Below are positions 2,726 to 7,018 of a DNA stretch of 64,000 bases, piece by piece. Positions within the stretch are counted from its first letter, which is position 1, and each line of letters opens with the position of its first letter. Location of the stretch: contig NZ_JANFPI010000002.1 in NCBI RefSeq assembly GCF_026552795.1, positions 1 through 64,000 on the forward strand. Reading direction: 5' to 3'. The notes beneath the pieces are model-generated. The model was given only the letters and a program-made list of their open reading frames with translations, was not told where the DNA came from and did not search any database. The translations under genes were made by a program, and so were the position numbers. This DNA comes from Ectorhizobium quercum (lineage in GTDB: Bacteria; Pseudomonadota; Alphaproteobacteria; Rhizobiales; Rhizobiaceae).

Positions 2726-2773
2726 GCGCATGGGTGGCTATCGCCGGATGGTTACACCATCCTGCCCATGCGC
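2726..2773 (-). promoter_or_regulatory. alternative (1:2) hairpin of the ilv attenuator
   Basis: Two nested inverted repeats overlap the end of the leader reading frame: a 9-bp outer arm (GCGCATGGG at 2773-2765 with CCCATGCGC at 2734-2726) and a 7-bp inner arm (GGATGGT at 2762-2756 with ACCATCC at 2752-2746) around the TAA stop. A ribosome stalled at the Leu-Ile-Val-Val codons would mask the first arm. A short AGCC/GGCT pairing between this region and the terminator's first arm could be the antiterminator, but that is weak and inferred. Confidence 0.65.
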
Positions 2774-2808
2774 CGTCCCACTACGATAAGGTTTGCGAAT
2801 TTTTTCAT
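2752..2808 (-). CDS. ilv operon leader peptide (18 residues)
   Basis: A small frame on the minus strand encodes MKKFANLIVVGRRMGRMV and stops at 2754-2752. It carries four consecutive branched-chain codons, Leu-Ile-Val-Val, the hallmark of a leader peptide that senses charged tRNA for the operon's end products. It is followed by a competing hairpin and an intrinsic terminator and then by ilvI. A good promoter (TTGACG, 17 bases, TAACAA) places the transcription start at about 2809, essentially on the ATG, so the leader would be translated from a leaderless message. That arrangement is known for the rhizobial trpL leader; here it is inferred from spacing. Confidence 0.8.
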   Translation of the reverse strand: MKKFANLIVVGRRMGRMV

Positions 2809-2815
2809 GGCCGAT

Positions 2816-2844
2816 TTGTTAGACGCAAACACGACATTCGTCAA
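2816..2844 (-). promoter_or_regulatory. ilvIH promoter (-35/-10)
   Basis: Minus-strand TTGACG (2844-2839), a 17-base spacer and TAACAA (2821-2816) resemble a housekeeping sigma-70 promoter of alphaproteobacteria. The predicted start point is about 2809, at the leader peptide ATG. It faces away from the HerA-like gene, which starts at 3053. Confidence 0.6.
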
Positions 2845-3052
2845 CGCCCACAGCCTGAAAAAGAGGCGGCTGGCGGATAATTTGCCGCCGTTTTCGCCAG
2901 AAGGCGCACGCCTGCCTATACGAGTTATTAAATCCGCACGCATAGGATGGAGGCAACCGGCAGAAAAGGCGCGGGCGGCCCAACCTCCCCCGAAGCTCCG
3001 ATGCCGGCCTCCTGCGACGGAAAGCACCGATTTGTTCACGGACGAGCACAGC

Positions 3053-4957
3053 ATGCCTGAACCCGGCAACGACACGGAACGCCGCGGCGACAAGCCGGGA
3101 AACCGCCTGCTGGGGCGGGTCGTCTCGTGCAACGGCGCCCGGGCGACCATCGCCGCCGTGGCCGAAAACGGCGGCACGGACCTCACCGAACTGTGGTCCG
3201 TCGGCCGGCTGATCTCGATCAGCGTCGGCGAGAACCGGGTCGTCGCGCTGGCCTTTTCCATGCGCACCCGTTCCAGCGGCTGGACGGAAGCGGTCGACAA
3301 TCCCTTTGAGATCGAAGTGGAGATTCTGGGAGAAATCCGTCCGGGCGCGGACGGCCGCCCGGAATTCTCGACCGGCATTTCCCGCTACCCCTATCTCGGC
3401 GCCATCGCCCACCGCATCCGCGCGGCGGACCTGCGCTGCATCTACGACACGGGCAAGAACGAGAGCTGCGTGGTCGGGCATCTTTCGCAGGACGAGAGCA
3501 TCGCCGCCACGATCCATGTCCCTTCCATGCTGTCCAAGCATTTCGCGGTCGTCGGCTCCACCGGCGTCGGCAAATCGACCGCCGTCTCGCTGATCCTGCG
3601 CAAGGCGATCGAGACCGATCCGAAGCTGCGGGTGCTGATCCTCGATCCGCACAACGAATTCGCCGCCGCCTTCCCCGATCATGCGGTCGTCATCGACACC
3701 GACAATCTCGACCTGCCCTTCTGGCTCATGAAGCTCGAGGAATTCACCGAGGTCATCTTCCGCGGCCGGCCCGCTGTTCCCGAGGAAATCGAATTCCTGC
3801 GCGATGTGGTGGCCGAGGCCCGCAAAGCCTTCCGCGGCGAATCCAGCTTCATGCGGCGCGCGACGGAAAAGAGCGGCATCACCGCCGACACGCCCGTTCC
3901 CTACCGCATCGCCGACCTGCTCGCCCTCATCGACGACCGTATCGGCCGGCTGGAAGGCCGCAACGAAAAGCCGCATCTGCGTTCGCTGAAGGTGCGCATC
4001 CTGTCGGTCATCAACGACCCGCGCTACCATTTCATGTTTTCCAACAATACGATCAGCGACACGATCATGGAAACGGTCGCGCATATTTTCCGCATTCCGG
4101 GCAACGACAGGCCCATCTGCACGTTCCAGCTCTCCGGCATTCCCTCGGAGGTGGTCAACTCGGTGGCCTCCGTCCTGTGCCGCATGGCCTTCGAACTGGC
4201 CCTGTGGTCGAACGGCGCGGTCCATATGCTGGTCGTCTGCGAGGAAGCGCACCGCTACGTGCCGGCCGATCCCCATCTCGGTTTCTTCCCGACGCGTCAG
4301 GCCATCGCGCGAATCGCCAAGGAGGGGCGCAAATACGGCGTCTCGCTCGGCGTCATCACCCAGCGCCCGAACGAACTCGACCAGACCATCCTTTCGCAGT
4401 GCTCGACGCTGTTCGCCATGCGTCTGGCCAACGAGCACGATCAGGACATCATCCGCTCGGCCATTCCGAACTCGTCGATTTCGACGACGAGCTTCCTGTC
4501 CTCCATTGGCAACGGCGAGGCCATCGCCTTCGGCGAGGCCATCGCCATTCCCATGCGCATGCGTTTCGAGCGCGTGCAGGAAAACCGGCTGCCGAAGACG
4601 GCGAGCGCCGCCCGCAAGGTGGAGGAAACCGCCGATCAGGTCGATCTGCGCTCGGTCATCAGCCGCATGCGGGCCATGAACACCGAGCCGGACATCAGCG
4701 CCTTCAGGGCATCCTACGACAGCTACGCCGCCGAACGCGAAGCCGCCCTCGCCGCCAGCACGGGCCTCGATGCCTGGAATGGCGGACTCCACCGCGAATC
4801 CCTCGTCGTCCGGGAAGAGCCACACGATCCGCACCGCCAACCCGCACCGCCGCTCGACCCGTCGACGGATGCCGGTCCGTTCCGCCGCGACAATCGCCTG
4901 TCACTGCGGGAAAGTATCCTGAAAAAGCCCCTGAGCAGCCTGCGCGATCCCGACTAA
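3053..4957 (+). CDS. HerA-like ATPase (DUF87, helicase/translocase family)
   Basis: A 634-residue hexameric-translocase-type ATPase of the HerA/FtsK superfamily. An N-terminal beta-rich domain resembling the HAS barrel (about 15-100) precedes the DUF87 RecA-like domain with Walker A GSTGVGKST (near residue 170), LDPHNEF just after it, Walker B HMLVVCEEAHRYV (near 390) and the later GVITQRPNELDQTIL motif typical of HerA. The C-terminal 60 residues are basic and proline-rich and look disordered. The frame is open upstream to 2768, but the start at 3053 has GGACGAG in front, and the upstream part overlaps the ilv promoter and leader. No nurA-like partner is adjacent. Its role is probably in DNA processing; the exact function is unknown. 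Confidence 0.85.
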   Translation: MPEPGNDTERRGDKPGNRLLGRVVSCNGARATIAAVAENGGTDLTELWSVGRLISISVGENRVVALAFSMRTRSSGWTEAVDNPFEIEVEILGEIRPGADGRPEFSTGISRYPYLGAIAHRIRAADLRCIYDTGKNESCVVGHLSQDESIAATIHVPSMLSKHFAVVGSTGVGKSTAVSLILRKAIETDPKLRVLILDPHNEFAAAFPDHAVVIDTDNLDLPFWLMKLEEFTEVIFRGRPAVPEEIEFLRDVVAEARKAFRGESSFMRRATEKSGITADTPVPYRIADLLALIDDRIGRLEGRNEKPHLRSLKVRILSVINDPRYHFMFSNNTISDTIMETVAHIFRIPGNDRPICTFQLSGIPSEVVNSVASVLCRMAFELALWSNGAVHMLVVCEEAHRYVPADPHLGFFPTRQAIARIAKEGRKYGVSLGVITQRPNELDQTILSQCSTLFAMRLANEHDQDIIRSAIPNSSISTTSFLSSIGNGEAIAFGEAIAIPMRMRFERVQENRLPKTASAARKVEETADQVDLRSVISRMRAMNTEPDISAFRASYDSYAAEREAALAASTGLDAWNGGLHRESLVVREEPHDPHRQPAPPLDPSTDAGPFRRDNRLSLRESILKKPLSSLRDPD

Positions 4958-4964
4958 GGCGTCA

Positions 4965-5227
4965 GGGCCCGTACTCCATCAGAATGGGTGTTCTGCAAGC
5001 GGCATTTTGCGTCTGAGTAGGAGGGAAGGTGCAGGAAATGCCGATCATTTTCAAACCTTTCCGACGTCCGCAGGCGCAAAATGCCACTTGCCCAAAGGGT
5101 TGGCCGGGATGAGCCGCCTGATTGCAAACAATGCTCGACAAGGCCAAAAGCCTTGCCTTGCGCTTGTTTGCTTCCATCCAATCTCATCCCGGCCAACAGA
5201 ACACCCATTCTGATGGAGTGTGGGCCC
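4965..5227. repeat. 263-bp nested inverted-repeat element
   Basis: The space between the convergent HerA-like gene and miaA is one folded element. Outer arms: GGGCCC plus a perfect 23-bp match, 4973-4995 against 5197-5219, giving 31-bp arms with two mismatches. Inside are two further stems: CAAGCGGCATTTTGCG (4996-5011) with CGCAAAATGCCACTTG (5075-5090, one mismatch), and a perfect 14-bp TTGGCCGGGATGAG (5100-5113) with CTCATCCCGGCCAA (5183-5196). The second stem encloses GCAAACAA/TTGTTTGC (5124-5131, 5164-5171) and a small hairpin at 5140-5154. Together these make a three-way-junction cruciform. It may be a MITE or RIME-like repeat, or a structured RNA or bidirectional terminator. It has no convincing gene. 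Confidence 0.85.
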
Positions 5228-6129
5228 TAGGCGGGCGGCGTCAGGCGCTGCCAGCTTTCGTCCATCTGGTTGCGGAACCACGTCATCTGCCGCTTGGCAT
5301 ATTGCCGGGTGGCCGCCGCCCCGCGCTCCTCCACCTCGGAGCGGCTCATCGAACCGTCCAGCATGGCGGCGATCTCGCGCACGCCGATGGCCTTCATCAC
5401 CGGCAGGTCGTCCGCAAGCCCGAGCGCAAGCAGGGCCCGGACCTCCTCGACCGCCCCGTGATCGAGCATCAGCCCGAAACGCCGGCCGATCCGCTCATGG
5501 AGAACGCCGCGCTCCGGCAGGACCACGAATTTGGCCGCCCGGGCGGGATCGACCAGCACCGGCCCCGCCTTGCCCTGGAACGCGCGGATGGAGCGCCCCG
5601 TCGCCTCGATGACCTCGAGCGCGCGCACGATCCTCTGCCCGTCCGCCGGCTGGAGGTCTGCCGCCGTCTCCGCGTCGCGGCGGGCAAGTTCGGCGTGCAG
5701 CGCCTCCGCCCCCTCTTCCTTCAGCCGCAGCCGCACCTGGCAGCGGACCGCCTGGTCGATCTCCGGCATATCCGACAGGCCGCCCGTCAGCGCCTTGAAA
5801 TAGAGCCCGGTGCCGCCGACGAACACGGGCAGCCGGCCATCGGCCCGGAGGACGGCGAGCAGGGCACTGGCGTCGCGCAACCACTCGCCGGTCGAATAGG
5901 CGCGCGAGGCCGACACATGCCCGTAAAGACGGTGGGGAGCGGCCGCCTCGTCCTCCAGCGAAGGACGCGCCGTCAGAACCCGCAGCGTGTCGTAGACCTG
6001 CATGCTGTCGGCATTGATCACCACGCCGTTGTGGCGCCGCGCGAGATCGAGCGCCAAAGCGGACTTGCCGCTGGCCGTCGGCCCGGTTATCAGAACGGCA
6101 TCGATATCGTCGTCAAGGTTTATCGTCAT
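5227..6129 (-). CDS. miaA: tRNA dimethylallyltransferase
   Basis: Adds a dimethylallyl group to A37 of tRNAs reading UNN codons (EC 2.5.1.75). The 300-residue product has the P-loop LITGPTASGKSALAL near the N terminus, followed by NADSMQVYDTLRVLTARPS, the conserved substrate-binding segment, and later GGTGLYFKALTGGL and QYAKRQMTWFRNQ. The preferred start is the ATG at 6129-6127 (MTINLDDD); a TTG at 6156 would add nine residues, and neither has a strong ribosome site. The ATG overlaps the divergent serB ATG by two bases. The stop TAG abuts the outer arm of the nested-palindrome element. Confidence 0.95.
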   Translation of the reverse strand: MTINLDDDIDAVLITGPTASGKSALALDLARRHNGVVINADSMQVYDTLRVLTARPSLEDEAAAPHRLYGHVSASRAYSTGEWLRDASALLAVLRADGRLPVFVGGTGLYFKALTGGLSDMPEIDQAVRCQVRLRLKEEGAEALHAELARRDAETAADLQPADGQRIVRALEVIEATGRSIRAFQGKAGPVLVDPARAAKFVVLPERGVLHERIGRRFGLMLDHGAVEEVRALLALGLADDLPVMKAIGVREIAAMLDGSMSRSEVEERGAAATRQYAKRQMTWFRNQMDESWQRLTPPA

Positions 6130-7018
6130 GGGCCTAGTTGCCACGCTGATCGCCAATCCGTCAAATCCCGTTCTCGATACGGCCTTCGGCGAGAAGGCCG
6201 CCGAAACCGCCGGCTCGACATTGCTCTACTGGCTGGCCGACGGCGTCGCCTGCGACATTCCCTTGCCCGATTTCGGCGATGCCGACGGGACGGAAGCGGC
6301 GCTGCGCACGCTGATCGGCTCGAAACCCGTCGACCTCGTCATCCAGCAGGCGGAAACCCGCCGCAAGAAACTGCTGATCGCCGACATGGATTCCACCATG
6401 ATCGAGCAGGAATGTATAGACGAACTGGCCGCAGAAGCCGGCCTGAAGCAGCAGGTCTCCGAAATCACCGCCCGCGCCATGAACGGCGAAATCGCCTTCG
6501 AGCCCGCCCTGCGCGAGCGCGTGGCGCTGCTCAAGGGTCTTCCGGTCTCCGTCATCGGCGATGTCATCGAAAAGCGCATCACGCTCACCCCCGGTGGCCG
6601 CGAGCTGATCGCGACGATGAAGGCCCGCGGCCATTACACCGCCCTCGTGTCCGGCGGCTTCACTGCCTTCACCGACCGCGTCGCCCATCTTCTCGGCTTC
6701 CATGAAAACCGCGCCAATCTCCTGATCGAGGAAGACGGCCGGCTGGCCGGCACCGTCGCCGATCCGATCCTCGGGCGCGAAGCCAAGGTCGATGCGCTGA
6801 ACGATATCGCCGCGAAGCTCGGCATCTCGCCGGACGAGGCCATTGCCGTCGGAGACGGGGCCAACGACCTCGGCATGCTGCATCTTGCGGGTTCCGGCGT
6901 GGCGCTGCACGCCAAGCCCGCCGTCGCCGCCCAGGCGCGGATCCGCATCGATCACGGCGACCTCACCGCGCTTCTCTACATCCAGGGCTATCGCAAGTCG
7001 GATTTCGTTTCGGCATGA
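6128..7018 (+). CDS. serB: phosphoserine phosphatase
   Basis: HAD-family enzyme releasing serine from phosphoserine, the last step of serine synthesis (EC 3.1.3.3). The 296 residues have a poorly conserved N-terminal regulatory part (1-80) and the HAD core: motif I LLIADMDSTMIEQECIDELA with the nucleophile Asp in DMDST, motif II LVSGGFTAF, and motif III with VGDGANDLGML. The start ATG lies within CATG shared with the divergent miaA start. The last four bases overlap the GNAT gene start (ATGA), indicating co-translation. Confidence 0.95.
   Translation: MGLVATLIANPSNPVLDTAFGEKAAETAGSTLLYWLADGVACDIPLPDFGDADGTEAALRTLIGSKPVDLVIQQAETRRKKLLIADMDSTMIEQECIDELAAEAGLKQQVSEITARAMNGEIAFEPALRERVALLKGLPVSVIGDVIEKRITLTPGGRELIATMKARGHYTALVSGGFTAFTDRVAHLLGFHENRANLLIEEDGRLAGTVADPILGREAKVDALNDIAAKLGISPDEAIAVGDGANDLGMLHLAGSGVALHAKPAVAAQARIRIDHGDLTALLYIQGYRKSDFVSA

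Follow-up and report, generated by a model that had tools for sequence, protein, structure and literature searches.

A probable IS5-type MITE with a conserved branched core in the Rhizobiaceae and other Hyphomicrobiales

One folded element occupies the spacer beside miaA

We characterized an intergenic spacer in the window (the whole 64,000-nucleotide stretch of Ectorhizobium quercum DNA that was analysed) that separates a HerA-like gene on the + strand (2768–4957, stop codon TAA at 4955–4957) from miaA on the − strand (5227–6156), both named as in the original prediction. Nearly all of the spacer is occupied by a single element of 263 bp (4965–5227 without target duplication; + is the strand on which arm 1 comes first), the ends of which are fixed by a comparison of 70 copies and by an empty site. 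Terminal inverted repeats of 31 bp on the left (4965–4995, + strand) and right (5197–5227, − strand) match each other at 29/31 positions and enclose two long hairpins. Arm 1 (4996–5090, + strand) has a variable outer stem with compensation (in helix 2, two-sided change affects 17/20 pairs) and an inner hairpin (5020–5065, + strand) in which GGAGGRAAGRTGCAGGAAATG..CATTTTCAAACCTTTCCGACG is conserved in most Rhizobiaceae copies of our alignment A1. Arm 2 (5100–5196, − strand), which folds better as the − strand, contains an inner hairpin (5126–5169, − strand) with near-invariant AACAATGCTCGA-AAGG and CTTGCGC in A1 (+ strand spelling), although both motifs were demanded by the core search pattern. 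Between the arms lies a CCC/GGG mini-hairpin (helix 6; 5091–5099, + strand). The two copies of the target duplication are CA on the left (4963–4964), which presumably derives from TA, and TA on the right (5228–5229); the latter TA and the last base of the element, G, together make up the TAG stop codon of miaA (5227–5229, − strand).

These nested inverted repeats, with their 31-bp outer arms and two inner palindromic arms, lie exactly where the original prediction had placed them. The three-way junction that it proposed comes close—the branched fold of an outer stem and two arms stands, and the mini-hairpin adds a further branch, giving a predicted four-way junction (outer stem, arm 1, mini-hairpin and arm 2). 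As RNA, the + strand (4960–5230) folds at −166.3 kcal/mol against a mean of −89.4 kcal/mol for shuffled sequences (z = −14.9; equalled by 0/200 shuffles) and the − strand (4965–5227) at −158.8 kcal/mol (z = −13.2); the − strand folded as DNA (4960–5230) gave z = −13.9, and for neither of the latter two was any of 200 shuffles as stable. No Rfam covariance model matched positions 4700–5500 of the window at E values up to 1, and searches for a sigma-70 promoter and a U-tract terminator gave no match for either. Small size, terminal inverted repeats and the lack of coding capacity are those of a MITE. A GTG/ATG frame that crosses arm 1 in a subset of copies was rejected as a conserved gene, given the in-frame TAA in the TTCTAACG copies of A1 and loop lengths that vary among copies (alignment judged by eye).

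A dispersed family in Hyphomicrobiales

Within its own genome, the element gave 14 blastn matches at E values up to 1. Four of these stem from the window copy itself and its arms and three lie at E = 0.71; the remainder are copies or pieces distributed across several contigs. L004 and L005 show no difference over 3185 bp and therefore represent one site; this identical segment of at least 3185 bp, which includes one copy and lies on contigs C16 and C11, either was duplicated recently or is an artefact of assembly (estimated contamination, 8.85). Remnants in the same genome comprise single ends, single arms and arm-deleted forms (L120, L123, L126, L132, L135, L006, L009 and L011). The ends of the window copy resemble those of Shinella (GGGCCCGTACTCCATCAG; compare L041), whereas other copies in the genome have AGGGTCAGGACC.. 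ends (L002, L003 and L004), and two subfamilies therefore share one genome.

Matches at E values up to 0.001 were found in 6/41 relative genomes and in 14/199 genomes of the family (own genome included in both counts), with at least five of these 14 showing short matches only. The core pattern occurs in 77 stretches of a collection of 84,980 species (one genome per species), which come from Rhizobium, Allorhizobium, Ensifer/Sinorhizobium, Shinella, Neorhizobium, Xaviernesmea, Aliirhizobium and Tepidamorphus, with further stretches in unnamed Hyphomicrobiales, other MAGs and one record titled Azospirillaceae; R. paknamense and A. sonneratiae contain many stretches each. Viral contigs yielded no exact core-pattern match, and two plasmid records matched in part, over 76% and 24% of the query. 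The element belongs to a dispersed family of the Rhizobiaceae and other Hyphomicrobiales. In the draft assembly of R. paknamense, contigs break within approximately 100 bp of element ends (G215 C2, C5, C6, C7, C9, C12, C14, C16, C18, C33 and C36), so that copy numbers in drafts are probably too low.

The 70 copies were extracted by script, with copies of identical core entered once (which dropped the sites L061, L066 and L093); a further 12 anchors failed the end criterion, including L024 and L071, which nonetheless have good inverted ends. Copies that lack the strict core pattern (L004, L005, L006, L009, L019 and L020 among them) fall outside the 70, and L004 was added by hand for the identity comparison and later steps. 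One of the 70, L025, is a nested copy that was miscut at 276 bp and is absent from the identity, neighbour-gene and frame analyses. It belongs to a 494-bp palindromic compound of Allorhizobium sonneratiae (L025:3409–3902) with inverted halves of approximately 150 nt and two core anchors, which has the look of two elements nested or fused into a dimer.

Target duplication and empty sites

An exact length of 268 bp, including the TA on each side, is shared by 47/70 extracted copies. TA is present at both ends in 60/70 copies and YTA..TAR in 52/70 (commonest form CTA..TAG, 26 copies), a constancy that is partly built in because the end-finding script scored against TAGGGTCA. An independent check on the TA duplication is provided by genomes with an element-free, stop-to-stop spacer at the miaA locus, two of them from the same genus (G002 and G001) and one from the family (G065): in G002, the miaA gene of which is 87% identical, the short spacer aligns with the window flanks joined via one TA. 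The duplication is TA at YTAR targets.

The original prediction had drawn attention to a 9-bp direct repeat near the ends, GGCGTCAGG (4958–4966 and 5237–5245). This repeat is present, yet its left copy overlaps the first two bases of the element; we rejected it as the target-site duplication, as it is missing from the empty site of the nearest relative and is unrelated to insertion. The mobility that the same prediction suggested is borne out by dispersed copies, the two same-genus empty sites, constant ends and the TA duplication—the proposed search for copies elsewhere and for empty sites found both, and in place of a single copy without compensatory change we found the opposite on both counts. 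Many copies in varied contexts, empty sites (at this locus only) and a target-site duplication, TA, are all features of a MITE.

Insertion at stop codons

The junction TAG is the exact stop codon of the neighbouring gene in 20/61 copies, against a background of 55/582 (9.5%) non-coding YTAR sites in comparable loci (binomial P = 4e-7), both counts being based on home-made gene calling rather than annotation. In a frame test of 130 ends (L034 and copies with short flanks were excluded, the latter also from the neighbour-gene count), 20 coding-like open frames enter the element; 17 of them terminate immediately in TAG, and the remaining three are short (309–327 nt) and doubtful. Given that the first base of the element is G, a copy that lands in the TA of a stop codon does no harm: target TA and terminal G together restore a stop codon, and entry at the last codon costs the protein nothing. 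The excess at stop codons may reflect target preference, survival or both. At the locus studied here, the element inserted in the TA of the miaA stop codon, with its terminal G changing TAA to TAG and both flanking genes left intact; MiaA ends in ESWQRIAPPP-stop (TAA) in G002 and in ESWQRLTPPA-stop (TAG) in the window, at equal length.

Among the 58 copies for which both neighbours were called, 35 lie between co-directional, 12 between divergent and 11 between convergent genes. Termination between convergent genes is thus not the general role of the element. Orientation relative to co-directional genes is not significantly biased (23 versus 12, P = 0.09).

The fold is conserved, with opposite strand preferences of the two arms

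Alignment A1 contains 30 of 32 representative copies (two 286-bp copies were omitted), and mean pairwise identity over all 32 is 69%. Two-sided compensatory change affects 60 of the 90 consensus pairs in these 30 copies; 96.4% of cells are paired, a share that falls to 79.9% after shuffling and does not exceed 45.5% in slid controls. Shuffling also lowers the covariation score, from 0.467 to 0.156. The stems of the arms are highly variable between lineages and some inner segments are near-invariant, although these segments include the core pattern used for the search, by construction.

Arm 1 is stabler on the + strand in 28/30 copies and arm 2 on the − strand in 30/30, and the whole element is stabler on the + strand in 12/30. 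Changes inferred by parsimony were counted as gains of G-U versus A-C mismatches: these are 25:22 in the terminal stem, 8:6 and 7:6 in the outer arm stems, 11:3 in the inner hairpin of arm 1, 1:5 in that of arm 2, and 52 versus 42 with all stems pooled. Taken on their preferred strands, the inner hairpins give 16:4 (P = 0.012), a comparison picked after the table had been seen. Raw counts (149 G-U versus 59 A-C cells) at first suggested a structured RNA made from one strand; this reading lost ground, as much of the excess comes from a small number of columns, the terminal stem shows no asymmetry and the arms favour opposite strands. The structured RNA considered in the original prediction therefore fares unevenly, with the structure strongly conserved but the arms favouring opposite strands, the terminal stem unbiased and the orientation bias non-significant.

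Recent copies in three groups show 37 distinct changes at 656 paired sites and 17 at 148 unpaired sites (P = 0.017); A. sonneratiae alone has no deficit at paired sites (14/214 paired, 2/54 unpaired). The deficit is modest and the paired-site changes of recent copies are mostly uncompensated, which indicates that single copies are at most weakly constrained; we infer that constraint acts on the lineage that keeps jumping. The opposite strand preferences of the arms make one strand-specific RNA unlikely as the conserved object. Rather, the element looks like two facing halves, each consisting of one end and a hairpin that is possibly relevant in one single-stranded form, an opposed arrangement that a role linked to DNA or replication would explain better than a single RNA would.

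A candidate transposase partner

Copies in R. paknamense start with TAGGGTCAAAACTCAATCA. A scan of this genome for such ends, allowing two mismatches, located a lone end at G215:C10:17278, with a match to the DUF4096 domain starting 97 bp inside. It belongs to an IS5-family element of 846 bp (L185:1404–2249) with ends TAGGGTCAAAACCCAATCA and TAGGCTCCAGACTCAATTG, which encodes DUF4096 and DDE_Tnp_1 in two overlapping frames that both match NCBIfam NF033580 above the cut-off; we take IS5-family insertion sequences (ISs) with this combination to be the IS427 group. Both ends of one R. paknamense MITE copy (L032) match the left end of the IS at 18/19 bases, and the right end of the IS matches a MITE end at only 14/17 (E = 2.3). 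R. paknamense is hence a copy-bearing genome in which an IS5-family element has ends in common with the MITE. E. quercum contains a more diverged IS5-family element of 851 bp that starts with TAGGGTTAGGACCTG, which resembles some of its own MITE copies and remnants (TAGGGTCAGGACCTG) weakly, over approximately 14–15 bp (E = 0.19), and IS5-like elements of other genomes (L197, L210, L211 and L212) have ends that are similar to a varying degree.

Just the terminal bases, approximately 15–19, are common to ISs and MITE. A profile of the family run against the IS loci gave 15 matches, all at E values above 1, of which 12 fall at element ends and three elsewhere; the matches to IS ends are individually non-significant (E = 1.6–9.7), and a reversed control gave one match (E = 1.0). 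The profile found no significant match between the MITE arms and the IS interior. In copy-rich Allorhizobium sonneratiae, neither of two IS5 hits has matching ends, and the ends of the window copy (GGGCCCGTACTCC) have no good match among the ISs found. A separate 21-bp match (95%, E = 3e-5 at best) joins positions 154–174 of the L004 copy with positions 572–592 of the IS in the same genome (L191:1152–2002); on the MITE side it falls in arm 2, in three copies of this genome, and on the IS side in the RLIADKAYD-coding part of the transposase gene, and it may be coincidental or a remnant of the core's origin. An origin of the core in the IS was considered and rejected; besides this 21-bp match there were only the 15 profile matches above E = 1.

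On the evidence of these shared ends, an IS5-family transposase would bind the GGGTC..GACCC ends and mobilise the element in trans, and the element is a probable IS5-type MITE. Two other kinds of mobilisation were weighed against this. Mobilisation by an IS630/Tc1-like transposase would account for the TA duplication, but it is highly unlikely: among three genomes searched, PF13358 is present in two and gave no match in A. sonneratiae, TAGGGTC is missing from all three PF13358 loci, and the R. paknamense locus with a plausible end pair has TAGAGCGC ends. Exceedingly unlikely is a REP/BIME or TIR-repeat moved by a Y1 (RAYT/TIRYT) transposase, which the palindromic structure, the frequent position at gene ends and a foot sequence near CTAG might suggest; PF01797 was not found in 5/6 element-bearing genomes searched (the sole locus, L183, is in E. 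quercum), and the TA duplication and the size are unlike those given for REPs (20–40 bp) in the available part of their description (PMC3733652).

A further repeat was seen in R. paknamense and A. sonneratiae, where several copies of the element (L037, L043, L048, L065, L097 and L079) are adjoined by short palindromic sequences with GAGCG..CGCTCTA-like ends; these may be MITEs of the R. paknamense IS630 locus with the candidate end TAGAGCGC.

Why the core is kept

We consider it likely that the element is a non-autonomous MITE that depends on an IS5-type transposase acting in trans and whose core is kept as an aid to propagation. The branched palindromic core would be retained because it helps the element to propagate: while the element is replicated or excised, its hairpins may form by extrusion or by the folding of single-stranded DNA, and may thereby draw its ends together or make them accessible. 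We infer a role of the core in transposition, and selection on the folded DNA during transposition is our best guess. A stronger form, in which propagation needs the folded core and the two hairpins of opposite strand preference, one per half, serve as recognised structural signals in IS5-type (DDE) transposition, is put forward tentatively, as a possibility that we do not favour over its negation.

The main rival is that pairing is kept by mutation. During replication, template switching in quasipalindromes makes compensatory changes, and such switching within a palindrome would copy arm onto arm with no function needed. Terminal-stem mismatches are strand-symmetric (25 G-U versus 22 A-C gains) and the outer stems shift in sequence yet remain paired, as template-switch correction would have it; the near-invariance of inner segments over distant copies is unexplained by correction alone, and the 16 versus 4 imbalance between strands in the inner hairpins (P = 0.012, a post hoc comparison) also speaks against this explanation, which we judge to be rather unlikely. 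A functional structured RNA (an sRNA or an mRNA 3′ element) selected at host sites is improbable. It would agree with the very strong conserved fold, with paired sites that are less changed than unpaired sites in 2/3 groups of recent copies and with the 20/61 copies that begin exactly at a gene stop codon, but not with arms that prefer opposite strands (arm 1 the + strand in 28/30, arm 2 the − strand in 30/30, the whole element the + strand in 12/30), the lack of significant bias towards co-directional genes (23 versus 12, P = 0.09), the absence of matches to a sigma-70 promoter, a U-tract terminator or Rfam (E values up to 1), or the patchy presence among genomes. The position of the window copy between convergent stop codons, together with the same 20/61 copies at stop codons, could point to a two-way transcription terminator or mRNA-end protector retained for that role between genes; this appears quite improbable, with only 11/58 copies between convergent genes (35 co-directional and 12 divergent), no U-tract terminator found and close relatives that lack the element at the miaA site.

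If propagation does need the folded core in the stronger sense given above, the element would be a DDE mini-transposon with mobility that depends on single-strand hairpins, with ends swapped among IS5 transposases and the core retained. The ends of the family resemble different IS5-type elements in different hosts, and the family could serve as a clear test of whether the movement of DDE-type elements involves DNA folding. For annotation, it accounts for a recurring intergenic block of Rhizobiaceae that resembles a structured RNA.

Relation to known repeats

The element shares with IS5-family ISs the TAGGGTC... end and the terminal TA of the R. paknamense element, and differs from them in that they are approximately 850 bp long with a transposase in two overlapping frames, whereas the MITE encodes nothing. 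RUP of Streptococcus pneumoniae (107 bp), for which an IS630 partner has been proposed, is likewise a small non-autonomous element with a TA target and a proposed driver IS with matching ends; its length and IS630 partner set it apart, and the available part of its description mentions no two-arm core (PMC2229807). ERIC and Correia/NEMIS are mostly intergenic MITEs with transcripts that are reportedly affected by RNase III or RNase E (PMC10969869, PMC2229807), and belong to other taxa (enterobacteria and Vibrionaceae, and Neisseria, respectively), a distinction drawn from partial descriptions rather than sequence. MITEPye1 of Paracoccus yeei is alphaproteobacterial and intergenic and is reported to form long stem-loops as RNA, but has IS1182-family-like ends and 1–3 chromosomal copies, as compared by description in the part of the source available (PMC11578231). 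The RIME, Sm and ABC repeats of Sinorhizobium meliloti are also intergenic and rhizobial, with common sequence and secondary structure reported in the available text (PMC2573895); they were compared by description only, and none of our 77 core-pattern stretches is titled S. meliloti. REP/TIRYT sequences are palindromic repeats that lie mostly downstream of genes and, according to the excerpted source, are tied to Y1 transposases (PMC3733652), which were not found in 5/6 genomes searched. The accessible portions of the open-licence literature on rhizobial repeats, MITEs and IS5, IS427 and IS630 elements contained no description of this family. TA-target MITEs that fold into hairpins are already well known, as the available accounts of RUP, ERIC and Correia illustrate (PMC2229807, PMC10969869). 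What appears to be new is a probable IS5-type MITE with a conserved branched fold inside it, as set against RIME, Sm and ABC by description only. Bacterial MITEs are usually seen as decayed insertion sequences with irrelevant insides; here, the inside is a conserved part—a branched fold with compensatory changes across an order.
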